Source: Candidatus Gastranaerophilales bacterium (GTDB taxonomy: Bacteria > Cyanobacteriota > Vampirovibrionia > Gastranaerophilales > Gastranaerophilaceae). Taken from it: a stretch of 34,102 nucleotides of DNA. The position numbers and the translations under genes are program-made. Below, piece after piece: positions 9,238 through 25,709 of this stretch; position 1 is the first letter of the stretch, and each line of letters begins with the position of its first letter. The stretch lies in contig CALUYO010000017.1 of the NCBI GenBank assembly GCA_944325005.1, positions 1 to 34,102 of the forward strand. The letters run 5' to 3'. The notes below the pieces were generated by a model. It was not told where the DNA came from. It saw nothing but the letters and a program-made list of their open reading frames with translations, and did no database searches.

Positions 9238-10875
9238 ATGATTAATCAAGTGTTGTCTCCAAATACAGTTCAATCAAGAGCGTTCAGTAATTTTACCCAG
9301 CCTAAAAACGGCTACTTTATAAACACGTCTTTTTACGAGGAAGAAAAGAAAAAAGAAAATCACAGACTTGGCAAAGCTATTGCAATATCTGCTCTTGTAG
9401 TTGGTTTTGGTACGCTTGCTGTATTGAGTGGCGGCTTGAACAAGGGAACAGCAAAGCTTTTAAATAAATGGAAGCTTAATTTAGAGCAAAGAATGGCAAA
9501 GAATAGCAGGTTCAAGAATTTTTACAGGTTTACAGCAGGAAAGATAGATTCATTTATTGCAAAGTGTGAAAGTGTCAATAATTTTACAACATTAAAAGAT
9601 GTTGCCTTTCAGCGTTTAATGTGGGGTAAAGACGGAAGCAGGACTTTTACACGAAAGCTTCATGAATCTGTGACCGGTTTTTTTGATAAAATAAGCAGAA
9701 AAACAGTTAACTCTTCTTATGCAAGAACTTATGGCAAATTTTCCGAGTTGACGGAATATTTTGCATCAGTTAATGACAGAGTATTAAGACAGCATAAAAA
9801 TGACCCTAAGTTTGTAAGAGTTATAAATTCCATAAACGACAGAATTTCAGCAGTTAACTTTAATCTTGATAAAGGTTTTGGTGTTAATGCCCGTAACGAG
9901 CGCTTACAGGAAATTAAAACGGCTTCAGACGGCTTATTTGAGTTTTTCTGGGATGCAAGCTTGCATGACATTAGAAACTTTAAGTCAAAAAATATGTGGC
10001 AATCATTTATTGCGGAAGATTATCTTATTCCGGCTAAACTGCGTCTTGGAAATAAAGCCGGCCGTCTGAGACAGGCTATTACTCATGATATCAATGATAA
10101 TTATAAGGCAACAATTAAAGCTCTTGATAATATTCAAAAATTTGTGAACCCTTCTGATATGTCAACAAATGAAATCTTAAATACTTTAAGAAATAATTTG
10201 AATAAATATAAAAAACTTTCTGGTAATAAAGAAGTAATTGAAAGAGAGACTTTGAATAAAGAAATTATTCAAAATCTTAAAAAACTCGGAGATAATTTCA
10301 ACGGAGAGGCTTCTAAATTTAATTACAGTCCGGATGCCGGAAAAGCTATATCTGCTTATATTGCAGAGGTAGAAGAGATAATCTCAAAGAGTTCGAAAGG
10401 AGAACTACAGGAAATATTAACTCTGTATAAGAATATTTTACCAAGATCTGAATATCTGAAACTTAAATCTAAAGTTCAGTCTGCCATAAAGTCATTAGAC
10501 AAATCAATTGATATTGAAACAGTTCAATATTTTGATAAAGCAAGAGATTTAAAACTTGGTTCTGCTCCGACTGATGTTTTGTCAATTATCGGTGCTGTTG
10601 GCGCAGTTGGTTATTATTTAAATAAAGCGGAAACAAGAGATGATAAATACTCTGTCTCATTAAAATATGGAATTCCTGCAATCGGAGCAATTGCAACCTC
10701 GTTATACTGTACTGCAAGACTTGTCGCTGGCGGAAAAGCATTACTTTTTGGTCTGCTGTCCGGCTGGCTAATGAATAAAGCCGGAGTTATTGTAGATGAT
10801 GCACGTAAAAAATACACACTTGATGTATCTTTTCACAACAGAGAGCTTCTTAAACCTCAACCGGATAAAGTATAA
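9238..10875 (+). CDS. Unknown membrane protein (545 aa)
   Basis: I do not recognise a family. The N-terminus (MINQVLSPNTVQS...FSNFTQP) carries no cleavable signal peptide. A hydrophobic span at about 46-64 (AIAISALVVGFGTLAVLSGG) precedes a long, charged, mostly helical region (about 75-440). Two or three hydrophobic spans lie near the C-terminus (about 447-462 and 480-520, 'YGIPAIGAIATSLY' and 'ALLFGLLSGWLMNKAG'). This N-terminal span, helical middle and C-terminal hairpin plan recurs in the proteins at 16022 and 24342. The ribosome site is weak (AGGTAG). A TTGCAG/18/TATAGA match at 9198-9227 may be its promoter. Probably lineage-specific. Confidence 0.75.
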   Translation: MINQVLSPNTVQSRAFSNFTQPKNGYFINTSFYEEEKKKENHRLGKAIAISALVVGFGTLAVLSGGLNKGTAKLLNKWKLNLEQRMAKNSRFKNFYRFTAGKIDSFIAKCESVNNFTTLKDVAFQRLMWGKDGSRTFTRKLHESVTGFFDKISRKTVNSSYARTYGKFSELTEYFASVNDRVLRQHKNDPKFVRVINSINDRISAVNFNLDKGFGVNARNERLQEIKTASDGLFEFFWDASLHDIRNFKSKNMWQSFIAEDYLIPAKLRLGNKAGRLRQAITHDINDNYKATIKALDNIQKFVNPSDMSTNEILNTLRNNLNKYKKLSGNKEVIERETLNKEIIQNLKKLGDNFNGEASKFNYSPDAGKAISAYIAEVEEIISKSSKGELQEILTLYKNILPRSEYLKLKSKVQSAIKSLDKSIDIETVQYFDKARDLKLGSAPTDVLSIIGAVGAVGYYLNKAETRDDKYSVSLKYGIPAIGAIATSLYCTARLVAGGKALLFGLLSGWLMNKAGVIVDDARKKYTLDVSFHNRELLKPQPDKV

Positions 10876-15811: not shown

Positions 15812-15844
15812 TTGACATTTTTATTATTACTATGTTAGTATAAT
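15812..15844 (+). promoter_or_regulatory. Promoter of the Trp leader
   Basis: A perfect TTGACA (15812-15817) lies ahead of overlapping -10 options: TAGTAT (15836-15841, 18-bp spacer) or the perfect TATAAT (15839-15844, 21-bp spacer). Transcription would begin near 15848-15851, just before the AAGGA ribosome site of the leader peptide. Confidence 0.6.
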
Positions 15845-15866
15845 TAAACAAAGGAAAAGTAATTTT

Positions 15867-15941
15867 ATGCCAAACTTAAATTTAAACACTCAATCTTGGT
15901 GGCACCTGTTTGATAAGACAGGTCTTTTAAGCTGGCAATAA
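15867..15941 (+). CDS. 24-aa tryptophan-rich leader peptide
   Basis: The ORF has AAGGA (15851-15855) 11 nt upstream of its ATG. It encodes MPNLNLNTQSWWHL followed by FDKTGLLSWQ and stop. Two consecutive Trp codons (15897-15902) and a third near the end (15933-15935) give 3 Trp in 24 residues, extreme for this AT-rich genome. The Trp-Trp pair sits directly before hairpin arm 1 of the attenuator, as in trpL of enteric bacteria. It is inferred to be a regulatory peptide whose translation senses charged tRNA-Trp, not a functional protein. Confidence 0.7.
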   Translation: MPNLNLNTQSWWHLFDKTGLLSWQ

Positions 15942-15992
15942 GCTGATAATTTTAGGATTAAAATGACCTGTCTTTTAAGACGGGTCTTTTTT
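15904..15992 (+). promoter_or_regulatory. Trp-type transcription attenuator
   Basis: Four arms can be drawn. Arm 1 (15904-15911) pairs with arm 2 (15916-15923), 8 bp with one G-U, loop GATA. Arm 2 (15915-15924) pairs perfectly over 10 bp with arm 3 (15965-15974), the antiterminator. Arm 3 pairs with arm 4 (15977-15986) with one G-U, followed by T6 at 15987-15992, the terminator. A ribosome stalled at the Trp codons 15897-15902 would cover arm 1 and favour 2:3; a ribosome reaching the stop would hinder arm 2 and favour 3:4. Pairings were read by eye; folding energies were not computed. Confidence 0.7.
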
Positions 15993-16021
15993 GTTATCAG
16001 ATTATATAAAGGAAATTACTT

Positions 16022-17248
16022 ATGAAAACCAATAACATTAATAATATATCATTTACCAACTCAGGAAATATCGGAATAGGATTAAAAGCGGCAAGTAAAA
16101 TTATAAGTGTACAGGAAGGCGGTGCGGGGCTTTCTAATATAAGATTTATTCAGGACAGTGCAACCGGGCTTGTTCCAAAGGCTGTATTTGCAAGAAGTAA
16201 GGCAGATCTTGGGGAAAATACTTTTCTTGAACTCTCAGAATCTATACTTGTTTATTATTTTCCGGCACTTTTAGGGGAGGGAATTTTTAAAAAACTTTAT
16301 TCGCAAAAACTTCCTGCTGAATTGAAAAAACAAATTTCTACTCCTGCTTCCTGTTTGCTGAAATCTGGTAATCCAGCAAGCAAAAAACTTATGCCTGTAA
16401 AAGCTGCTCTTGCTTTAAGTGCCTTTGCAATTCCGCTTGTAGAATACACTCTTAACTACTTTAAAAATTTAATGACTTTAAAAGTATTTAAGCAGGCTGA
16501 TTTCGAAAATATTGCAAATTTAAATAAAAATAAATCAGAAAATAAAGAGCATGCTGAAAAAGTTGAAAAGAGTGCTAAAAAACATATTAAGCTTGCAGGA
16601 GGAATTTATGCCGGTTGTCTGGCCTTGAGTGCTCTGCTTTTGAGACGCGGCAAAAATTCTAAATTCCTGCAAAACTTATCTGAGATAATTCTTGCTCCGG
16701 GAACTAAATTGTTCAAAAATAATAAAAAGAAAGCAGACTTTTTGAATAAATATTTTAGTATTGATTTTGCAGATAATAACGGAAAACTGGCTTTGAGCAG
16801 AGGTCAGCTTACCTCATGCGTTCTTGTTGGCGGTGCGGGATATTTCGGGGCATCTAAAGATAGAGGAAAACAAAATTTTCTGGAAACATTATTCAGATAT
16901 CCGCTTGTAGGTTTTTACATTATCTGTGGAAATGAGCTTCTAGAAAAAGGGTTTAGAAAACTCCTTTATAAAAACAGAAAATGCAAAGAACTTATTAATG
17001 AAAAGCTGGAAGTCCCGCAGTTAAAAGATTTAAGAAAGATTGCAGAAACTTATGGCGATAAAGCTGATACAATGTATAAAAAACTTTTAAAACAAAAAGT
17101 TTTGATTGCCGGTCTGCCTTTATTATTTGGAATAGGTGTTATGGGCTTTTTTGTCGCAGGTTCATCAAATTTATTTACGAAATTCAGATATAACAGAGAA
17201 GAAAAAATAAAAGAGCAAACTAAAAATAAATCTCTTTCACAAGCATAA
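16022..17248 (+). CDS. Unknown membrane protein under the Trp attenuator
   Basis: A 408-aa protein of no family I recognise. It opens with 'MKTNNINNISFTNSGN', then has about five hydrophobic segments: about 122-145 (LMPVKAALALSAFAIPLVEY), 190-208, 258-272, 286-302 and 358-380 (LIAGLPLLFGIGVMGFFVAG), separated by Lys-rich loops. It contains no tryptophan. AAAGGA lies 8 nt before the ATG. The upstream attenuator suggests it is made when charged tRNA-Trp is scarce, so a transport or salvage role is conceivable, but nothing in the sequence proves it. Its 3' end overlaps the convergent kinase gene by 29 bp. Confidence 0.75.
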   Translation: MKTNNINNISFTNSGNIGIGLKAASKIISVQEGGAGLSNIRFIQDSATGLVPKAVFARSKADLGENTFLELSESILVYYFPALLGEGIFKKLYSQKLPAELKKQISTPASCLLKSGNPASKKLMPVKAALALSAFAIPLVEYTLNYFKNLMTLKVFKQADFENIANLNKNKSENKEHAEKVEKSAKKHIKLAGGIYAGCLALSALLLRRGKNSKFLQNLSEIILAPGTKLFKNNKKKADFLNKYFSIDFADNNGKLALSRGQLTSCVLVGGAGYFGASKDRGKQNFLETLFRYPLVGFYIICGNELLEKGFRKLLYKNRKCKELINEKLEVPQLKDLRKIAETYGDKADTMYKKLLKQKVLIAGLPLLFGIGVMGFFVAGSSNLFTKFRYNREEKIKEQTKNKSLSQA

Positions 17249-23269: not shown

Positions 23270-24365
23270 AATTGCTGTTATAGGCGGAGGCCCCGCAGGG
23301 TGTATTTGTGCATATTTTTTGCAGAATAATTTTGAAGTAACCGTTTTTGATAAAAATGCTCCTTTAATGACTTTATTGCCAACCGGCGGGGGTAGATGTA
23401 ATCTTTGCCATGCAGAATTTGATTTCAGAGAACTTGCTTCAAATTATCCGCGTGGCGAAAAATTTCTATATTCTGTATTTTCAAAATTCGGAACTGCTGA
23501 AACTCTTGAATTTTTTGAGAGTATAGGTATAAAAACCTATGTTCAGGATGATATGCGGGTTTTTCCTGTCTCGAACAGTTCTGCTGAGGTGAGAGATAAA
23601 TTTCTTAATGCGTTGAATAATGTTAAATTTATTAGAGAAAAAGTTTTACGTATCAATGAATGTTTTGATATTGTAACTAATAGTGGCGAATATAAAGCAG
23701 ATTATATTGTAATATCAACCGGCGGTCATTCTTCTTATGATTTTATAAAAAGGCTTGGACATAATATTATTGAGCCTAGACCTGCACTTACCGGTTTAAA
23801 GACGCTTGAGGACTTTTCTTTATTAAGCGGAGTTTCGGTTGGGGGTGTTTTATTCACGCATAAAGGTGTTTCCGGCCCTGAAATTTACAGAATATCATCC
23901 TTGAGGGCAAGAGATAAATTCCCTTATAAATTAACTTTTGATTTTACAGGTGATATTGATTTGCAGACGGAATTGAATGCCAATCCTCATAAAAGTATCC
24001 GTAATCTTCTTGGAAACCATGTGCCGAAATCATTAGCCGAATTTAGCCTAAAGTGTCTGAATATTAATCCGGATCAACAATGTCATTTAATTGATGGCAA
24101 AACTCGTGACAGAATTCTATATAAACTTCAAAAATTTGAAGTTACTGTTACCGGCACAGTTCCTGACGGAGAAGTTGTTACTGCTGGCGGAGTTGATTTA
24201 AACGAGATTAATCCTAAAACTATGGAATCAAAACTTGTCCCGAATATATATTTTTGCGGTGAAGTTATGAATATTGACGGTTTTTGCGGAGGATTTAACC
24301 TGCAAAATTGCTGGTCAACAGGTTTTGTTGCGGCTCAGGGTTTAAATCTTACCCTTGGCGGCTAA
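23247..24365 (+). CDS. BaiN/HI0933-family NAD(P)/FAD-dependent oxidoreductase
   Basis: About 372 aa from ATG 23247, which overlaps folK by 23 bp. The dinucleotide-binding motif 'KIAVIGGGPAGCICAYFL' is near the N-terminus. 'LPTGGGRCNLCHAEFDF' is the hallmark of the YhiN/HI0933 flavoprotein group, and 'VISTGGHSS', 'GVSGPEIYRISS' and the C-terminal 'TAGGVDLNEINPKTMESK' and 'NIDGFCGGFNLQNCWSTG' agree with it. These flavoproteins reduce unsaturated substrates (BaiN acts on bile acids) or have unknown roles; the substrate here is unknown. A gut bile-acid link would be speculation. The 3' end overlaps the convergent gene by 24 bp. Confidence 0.88.
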   Translation: MVQELKSKIAVIGGGPAGCICAYFLQNNFEVTVFDKNAPLMTLLPTGGGRCNLCHAEFDFRELASNYPRGEKFLYSVFSKFGTAETLEFFESIGIKTYVQDDMRVFPVSNSSAEVRDKFLNALNNVKFIREKVLRINECFDIVTNSGEYKADYIVISTGGHSSYDFIKRLGHNIIEPRPALTGLKTLEDFSLLSGVSVGGVLFTHKGVSGPEIYRISSLRARDKFPYKLTFDFTGDIDLQTELNANPHKSIRNLLGNHVPKSLAEFSLKCLNINPDQQCHLIDGKTRDRILYKLQKFEVTVTGTVPDGEVVTAGGVDLNEINPKTMESKLVPNIYFCGEVMNIDGFCGGFNLQNCWSTGFVAAQGLNLTLGG

Positions 24366-25679
24366 TTCTTTTTTTAAATCTTCTTTAACCTGAAAAGCGT
24401 TGTTGTCTTTATCAAGTTTTCTGAATGCAATCATAATTGCAGGTGCAAGTATACCCAGAGCACCAATACATGCACCCATGTTTTTCAGGATTGATTTTCT
24501 TTTCAGCTTCTTGACATTATCTAAGAACGCGTCAAGAGACTTTTCTTTTACATCTGCTTTTTGAAATTCTTCAAATTTATTTTTGAGCTTATCCAGTTTT
24601 TCTGCAACGCCTTTAAAATCATCAAAATCAATAAAACTTCTGTAATCGACGTCATCAGCCTGTGTTGCTTCTTTTAGTACCGGTAGTACATCTGATTTTT
24701 TAGCCATTTTTACGACAAAATCATCCGGGTTGTTGTGAATGAAATCAAGTAATTCTTCATGAGACTTGAGTGCTAGAACTTTTCCGGTACTTTCTTTAAG
24801 TTTACCGTTTTTGAAAGCTTCTTTAAGTTCTTCACTTTCTATAACTCTTGCATCCAAATCAATTGATGCAGGTTTCTTTTTGTTCTTTTCAGCTGCGTTT
24901 TCAAGGAATTTCTGGATAGGTTTGCTCGCAAAATACATAAATAGCCATACAGAACCTTCTTTAATGGTATATCCAAGTAATTCCTGTTTGTTTCTTGATT
25001 CTGCAAGTCTTTCAGCGGTAATAGCTCCGTCAAGTATCATAAGGTTTTTGACCGGATTATACATAAAATCCTGTATGCTTCCGGTAAATGTCGTTTGTTT
25101 TTTCTGTAATTTAAAATTATTAAATGCAGAGGATGTCGGAGAGGTATAAGCAAATGTGTCTTTCTTTTGATTTTCTTTTGCCATTTCTGCTAGAATTTCT
25201 TTTTCAGCATCCTTTCTTGTCTTGTAGTGTCTGTATTTTGTCAACCCTGCATAAGACGCAATTGTAAGAGCTGTAGAAACAACAAATTTTGTCATGGCAA
25301 GATGTTTTGTATATTTAGGATTTTTGCTGGCGTTTTTTATGCTCTCTTTAATTGATGCATCGGCATATTCAATAGTTTTTTCTAAGATTTTGCCTCTCTT
25401 ATTTGAAAGGTTTCTGACATCGAATTTCGGGTCAATTTTTAAAGCTTTGTACATTGTGTAATCCATAAGCTTTTTATAAACGGGAATCCCGAAAAGCCAG
25501 ATGGCTTGGGTTCCAAACTCATCTAAAAATCTGTCTTTCCCCTCTAATTTATCCCCTGTAATATATGAACCTGCTGTTAAGCCTGCACTGTTTGCAACAT
25601 CTTTAATTGCCATGGGTACAAGCGAATTATTATTTCCCAATATTGAATATATACTGCTAGCGCTAATTGCGGGTATCAT
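24342..25679 (-). CDS. Unknown membrane protein (445 aa)
   Basis: No family recognised. ATG 25679 is preferred over GTG 25697 because AAGGA sits just upstream and the GTG lies in a hairpin. The N-terminus is hydrophobic (MIPAISASSIYSILGNNNS). Likely membrane spans are near residues 121-140 (FVVSTALTIASYAGL), 240-255 (GSVWLFMYFASKPI) and 405-425 (MGACIGALGILAPAIMIAF), with long Lys/Glu-rich helical parts between. 'QTTFTGSIQDF' (about 195) echoes the SFT/SFG motif of nearby unknown proteins. Plan and composition resemble the genes at 9238 and 16022. It overlaps the flavoprotein gene tail-to-tail by 24 bp. Confidence 0.72.
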   Translation of the reverse strand: MIPAISASSIYSILGNNNSLVPMAIKDVANSAGLTAGSYITGDKLEGKDRFLDEFGTQAIWLFGIPVYKKLMDYTMYKALKIDPKFDVRNLSNKRGKILEKTIEYADASIKESIKNASKNPKYTKHLAMTKFVVSTALTIASYAGLTKYRHYKTRKDAEKEILAEMAKENQKKDTFAYTSPTSSAFNNFKLQKKQTTFTGSIQDFMYNPVKNLMILDGAITAERLAESRNKQELLGYTIKEGSVWLFMYFASKPIQKFLENAAEKNKKKPASIDLDARVIESEELKEAFKNGKLKESTGKVLALKSHEELLDFIHNNPDDFVVKMAKKSDVLPVLKEATQADDVDYRSFIDFDDFKGVAEKLDKLKNKFEEFQKADVKEKSLDAFLDNVKKLKRKSILKNMGACIGALGILAPAIMIAFRKLDKDNNAFQVKEDLKKELAAKGKI

Positions 25680-25691
25680 TTTTTCCTTTCC

Positions 25692-25709
25692 TGACACTCT
25701 TTGGTGTCA
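25692..25709. repeat. Hairpin just upstream of the ribosome site
   Basis: A perfect 6-bp inverted repeat, TGACAC (25692-25697 as written on the + strand) and GTGTCA (25704-25709), with a 6-nt spacer, directly before the ribosome site of the gene starting at 25679. It could be an operator or an mRNA hairpin affecting translation. Confidence 0.4.

Follow-up and report, generated by a model that had tools for sequence, protein, structure and literature searches.

A candidate tryptophan attenuator before the gene of a tryptophan-free membrane protein in Gastranaerophilales, with methionine-codon counterparts among its paralogues

Why should a leader built like that of the enteric trp operon stand before a gene that is not a trp gene? 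The question is raised by the window, a stretch of 34,102 nucleotides from a Candidatus Gastranaerophilales bacterium, which is contig C17 of a 2.0-Mb genome (G000). A sequence-only reading had listed a promoter, a ribosome site, a 24-aa peptide with a Trp pair and a third Trp, four RNA arms and a T6 tract. All of them were recovered on the forward strand at the positions given there. The promoter (15812-15844) is composed of TTGACA (15812-15817), an 18-nt spacer and a TG-extended TAGTAT (15836-15841). It shows 10 of 12 matches with TG preceding the second hexamer, and TATAAT at 15839-15844 is an alternative -10 element. The ribosome-binding site of the leader peptide, AAAGGA (15850-15855), is kept in the genus orthologues. 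The peptide MPNLNLNTQSWWHLFDKTGLLSWQ has 24 residues and is encoded from the ATG at 15867 to the TAA at 15941. Its putative regulatory codons are the tandem TGGTGG (15897-15902), and the third Trp codon lies at 15933-15935.

The four arms follow in the expected order. Arm 1 (15904-15911) pairs with arm 2 (15915-15928), and the partner of arm 2 is either arm 1 or arm 3 (15960-15974). Arm 3 can also pair with arm 4 (15977-15986) in a 9-bp stem, which together with T6 (15987-15992) makes an intrinsic terminator (15977-15992); one terminator was found against 0.1 expected. The energies, each computed for the hairpin in isolation, are -9.8 kcal/mol for 1:2, -19.2 kcal/mol for the antiterminator 2:3 and -13.9 kcal/mol for the terminator 3:4. 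The leader fold is more stable than its shuffles (z = -3.6). The claimed core of ten perfect 2:3 base pairs is present between 15915-15924 and 15965-15974, and the complement was equalled by none of 200 shuffles. As also claimed, TGGTGG ends one nucleotide before arm 1, the position where a stalled ribosome would mask it. One element goes beyond that reading. An outer stem (15943-16000), formed by CTGATAA (15943-15949) with TTATCAG (15994-16000), encloses the terminator; in some relatives the Shine-Dalgarno sequence forms part of this stem. Rfam yielded nothing meaningful, whether searched at gathering or at permissive thresholds, and Trp_leader had no match in the window even at E values up to 10.

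In the proposed mechanism, a ribosome supplied with Trp would pass the WW codons into and beyond arm 2, arms 3 and 4 would pair, and transcription would end in the T run. Under a shortage of charged tRNA-Trp, the ribosome would halt at WW and cover arm 1. Arm 2 would then take arm 3, the terminator would be blocked and the membrane protein would be made. Judged from its sequence, the window leader is very probably a working Trp-responsive attenuator, and we infer from it that the gene is regulated by Trp in the cell.

The attenuation reading was open to rejection if relatives lacked the Trp codons or the 2:3 pairing. Both were looked for, and the feature survived. Within the genus, family members occur in 12 of 33 genomes, and nine of these (the window genome included) carry a complete orthologue. 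The relatives' orthologues are 81-88% identical to the window protein, and the 24-aa WW leader with its terminator is present in all nine. The order-wide sample consisted of 80 named loci from a species-level collection. The gene start and upstream sequence were available for 79 loci, which split into 61 W-clade loci, like that of the window, and 18 M-clade paralogues. The search of the homologues of the gene at 16022 for the same leader was positive in every W-clade locus: TGGTGG is found in 61/61 across the order, three of them being listed with non-ATG starts. In its long form the leader has about 24 residues, and its reading frame closes past arm 2. The short form ends in WWRL before the stop codon, or nearly so, and stops within or just after arm 1. 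The arms are CCTGTA/TACAGG in most W-clade lineages, GGCAGC/GCTGCC in L085 and its relatives, GTCTGC/GCAGAC in L086 and GCTTGC/GCAAGC in L108. They differ by lineage yet stay complementary, and therefore the arms change together; within the common CCTGT type, most base pairs never vary. Where a terminator is recognised, most W-clade 2:3 complements beat their shuffles (p at most 0.03), the exceptions being L061, L064-066 and L102. A clear intrinsic terminator was not found by the terminator scan in about a third of the W-clade leaders. Codon-position counts on the 24-aa leaders were uninformative, the subclades being mixed.

Three observations were made beside this survey. In L076, L078 and L080, the leader ATG lies a few bases past a TATAAT-like box without a Shine-Dalgarno sequence, and the leader mRNA may be leaderless. 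A strong W leader lies near a contig end in G249:C37:5870-5976, and the best full-length match of that genome is only M-clade; its W-clade gene has probably been cut by the contig end. The L052 contig, FR900481, bears the title Fusobacterium sp. CAG:439, but the W-clade gene on it shares 87% identity with that of the window; the record looks misnamed.

The controlled gene (16022-17248, forward strand) stands alone, and its Shine-Dalgarno sequence is AAAGGA (16008-16013). As the sequence-only reading had it, the gene is not a trp gene and encodes a membrane protein of 408 aa with zero Trp. About six hydrophobic helical segments are seen by eye, whereas a strict hydropathy count gave three. The flanks are a YhcH/DUF386 gene (Pfam) on one side and a convergent kinase-like gene on the other. 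Across genera, none of the neighbouring genes is conserved, and no conserved transport gene adjoins. For all 54 family members searched, Pfam, NCBIfam and PDB sequences yielded no meaningful match, and no profile of the known amino-acid transporter families in Pfam and NCBIfam matched above its curated cut-off. The AlphaFold model is helical and confident (mean pLDDT 84, pTM 0.79); when it was compared with PDB and viral models by Foldseek, nothing reached E<=0.001. A second look with VIA gave Z of at most 5.7, for ABC-exporter chains, a level that unrelated helical proteins reach as well. Elsewhere in the window, at 9238-10875 and 24342-25697, two large proteins without Pfam families have hydrophobic stretches, and profile search gave no relation of these to the W-clade family.

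The caution that the lack of Trp could be chance in an AT-rich genome did not stand. Trp is absent from 59 of the 61 W-clade proteins, the remaining two having one each, whereas all 18 M-clade proteins contain one to four. Among the 24 membrane-like proteins with lengths of 370-450 aa in the window genome, only two are Trp-free. A protein without Trp can be made under Trp shortage.

The distribution of biosynthetic genes was then compared with that of the family. TrpC was detected in 14/14 control genomes and is absent from the window genome and from 356 of 383 genomes of the host family. The W-clade and M-clade profiles separate cleanly (E at most 1e-158 vs at least 1e-123). The W-clade gene and TrpC occur together in no genome against 8.9 expected (383 genomes, Fisher p = 1e-5), and the M-clade gene and TrpC in 17 against 7.1 expected, in statistics that ignore the kinship of the genomes, many of which are draft assemblies. 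The W-clade gene is absent from 26/26 genomes with confident TrpC, and the exclusion also holds within one mixed genus (p = 0.013). Most genomes of the family lack TrpC anyway, and about two thirds lack the W-clade gene. The window genome also lacks MetH and MetE, and MetE is absent in all 14 genomes tested, the window genome included. The MetH search covered 366 genomes, and its approximate expectations are 8.6 genomes for the M-clade gene with MetH (2 observed, p = 0.002) and 10.7 for the W-clade gene with MetH (6 observed). The absence of the W-clade gene from TrpC genomes fits a role in transport or salvage. Without TrpC the cell cannot make Trp, and a part in obtaining it is therefore the most likely role of the protein.

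How far the leader extends beyond this gene was determined by two scans. The first took in about 98.7% of the window genome, in stretches, with 1134 terminator-like hairpins. It asked for an amino-acid-run leader, an arm-2/arm-3 complement of at least 8 bp and a following gene, and the candidates were then inspected. Only two attenuator-like cases were found, the window locus and a Met paralogue on contig C9; the remaining listed rows were mostly ends of longer genes. The second was a covariance-model search for the W leader over the 383 genomes. In G276:C73 (L256), a match precedes a complete trpEG-D-C-F-B-A operon at a distance of about 30 bp. Its leader, MTKNFKNNLFWWCLY followed by a stop codon, has the same arms, terminator and GTTGTCA tail as the W leader. 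The gene after the leader is thus a Trp biosynthesis gene in this genome. A W-type leader on a trp operon links the module to Trp supply. Together with WW in 61/61 loci and the covarying arms, it supports the trp-type mechanism that the sequence-only reading had proposed. Weak R1 matches in G134 and G128 were assigned to chance, and in the other TrpC-positive genomes inspected (L262-L267) no WW leader lies directly before trp genes.

The sequence-only reading did not include the Met-responsive paralogues. The 18 M-clade loci encode proteins about 40% identical to the window protein. In 17 of them a Met-run leader is found (MMMQMMMQ and MNMMAMMSMQMMMC are examples), and arms 2, 3 and 4 accompany it; only in L122 was no Met-run leader seen. 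In the window genome, the leader MNNITNAMMMNMMMQGSGYGSLYFLLRM at G000:C9:4420-5836 (L014, L209) precedes the Met-clade paralogue with arms and a terminator. No leader was seen before the third family member of G000 (C16, 353 aa). By their sequences, the M-clade paralogues appear to apply the same scheme to Met. Internal Met amounts to 0.67% in M-clade proteins, 1.26% in W-clade proteins and 2.2% in the genome background; the samples in these Trp and Met composition counts are not independent, and the bias is in the direction expected for proteins made during shortage. An extremely Met-rich leader of 50 aa, MMNLTLNQKEMSMPKMPIMQMMQMMMCMMCIMMCMMCIMMCVSFWAGFLR, precedes the M-clade gene at L128:2610-2866. 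Several M-clade leaders have Cys codons near their end and perhaps sense the sulfur amino acids jointly.

Leaders also precede more distant homologues from another family of the class: WW in L271 and L275, WWW in L277, Met in L272, L276 and L279, and aromatic in L274 (YFF...FYWSWYGF). The protein behind the WWW leader has no Trp. Those of L271 and L275 contain 8 and 3 Trp, so that Trp-freeness is not universal. The L274 leader MQLPANSVYFFSQPVSFYWSWYGFSMPPGCCLS (L274:1643-1853) is rich in Phe, Tyr and Trp and could sense all aromatic amino acids. At L271:3668-5101, a small ORF with CGTCPFC lies upstream of a second tandem homologue; it may be a Cys leader but shows no clear T run. In a maximum-likelihood protein tree, whose deep part is unsure because of long branches, at least two changes of leader type are seen, which indicates that specificity switched with the protein subfamily.

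Our preferred reading is that a Trp-type attenuator controls a Trp-free membrane protein for Trp acquisition, probably an importer or part of one; we regard this as rather likely. Import of Trp, or of a Trp-containing peptide, would be the simplest role uniting the leader, the composition, the auxotrophy and the amino-acid versions. More tentatively, since the chance seems to us a little short of even, the proteins may form a new amino-acid importer family of Vampirovibrionia. Its substrate (Trp, Met or aromatic) would be readable from the leader, the sensed amino acid would have been eliminated from the proteins themselves, and the RNA output would switch between termination and Shine-Dalgarno masking.

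The best surviving alternative keeps the attenuator as described and makes the protein a non-transporter for survival of starvation, in dormancy, envelope or proteostasis, produced when Trp or Met is short. The lack of any match to a transporter family or fold, and of a conserved transport gene nearby, speaks for it. However, a general stress protein need not have Trp, Met and aromatic versions that track the protein clades, nor need its W version be missing from TrpC genomes while the Met version is present there. We consider this alternative unlikely, though it deserves attention.

A second alternative concerns the output. Regulation could be mainly translational, an alternative pairing masking or freeing the Shine-Dalgarno sequence and the terminator being secondary. 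A clear terminator is missing in L076-L080, L084, L087, L089, L094, L097, L100 and L117, and in these lineages, L076 excepted, the prediction is mostly that the Shine-Dalgarno sequence stays masked unless arms 2 and 3 pair. The same masking is mostly predicted despite a terminator in L098, L099, L101, L106, L107 and L109. In such lineages the 2:3 pairing would remove the partner strand, and translation would be the step on which the sensor acts. In the window and its genus, on the other hand, no release of the Shine-Dalgarno sequence is predicted (0.64 to 0.35 on 2:3 pairing in the window), and the terminator is strong and kept. Mainly translational control is accordingly rather improbable, and the output in the window's own genus is likely to be termination.

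The leader might also sense a general slowdown of translation by antibiotics, tRNA damage or phage attack. Trp and Met have one codon each, and they would then merely be convenient slow codons. Attenuation of drug-transporter genes by the ribosome is known, for example in bmrCD and mef/mel (PMC4191407, PMC4335068). The strict placement of WW and the loss of Trp from the protein point instead to the amino acid, as do the leader of the same type on a trp operon and the exclusion from TrpC-positive genomes; a general sensor is very improbable. That the upstream gene's terminator and a random small ORF met by chance has a negligible probability: small ORFs are common in this AT-rich genome and its terminator-like hairpins number 1134, but a chance origin is refuted by order-wide conservation with paired change, and both scan cases precede the same protein family.

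The nearest known system is the E. coli trpL leader, which the window leader resembles in its tandem-Trp peptide, its four arms pairing as 1:2 and 3:4 or as 2:3, and its U-run terminator. The E. coli trpL peptide ends in WWRTS, and the short W-clade leaders ending in WWRL are much like it. The differences are that the window leader controls a membrane protein rather than trp genes, in a genome without TrpC, and has a 24-aa form with a third Trp, an outer stem around the terminator and no match to the Rfam Trp_leader. In some W-clade lineages, moreover, masking of the Shine-Dalgarno sequence seems to take the place of termination. Strictly speaking, the window leader does not count among the trp operon leaders, since the gene that follows it is not a trp gene.

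Trp leaders have been described for Proteobacteria and Actinobacteria (PMC1262725). The actinobacterial candidates, found by comparison, combine a leader containing two or three UGG codons in a row with a terminator and an antiterminator; they precede trp operons and trpS2, and no Met leader is reported in the available part of that article (PMC1262725). An analysis of premature terminators covers leader peptides, including His leader peptides in Firmicutes, and ABC-leaders (PMC2965389). It is similar in that a membrane family of several paralogues carries different attenuators. In the available part of that article, however, Met transport is under T-box control, Met-codon leader peptides are not reported and Cyanobacteria are not mentioned (PMC2965389). 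In bmrCD, translation of a leader peptide likewise controls a transporter gene, the transport role of the window gene being our inference, but the response is to antibiotics and not to the matching amino acid (PMC4191407). Biosynthetic enzymes are described as low in their cognate amino acid (Alves and Savageau 2005, as cited in PMC4209129); the same avoidance is seen here in a membrane protein, at zero Trp.

No earlier account of this system was found in a literature search, and a search of an open-access paper library gave no Met-codon leader-peptide attenuator. To our knowledge, the M-clade leaders are the first candidates of that kind. With this finding, leader-peptide attenuation reaches non-photosynthetic relatives of cyanobacteria and an unannotated protein family. 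The leader would tell which amino acid is at stake, and may thus offer a handle on the import needs of hundreds of uncultured gut species.
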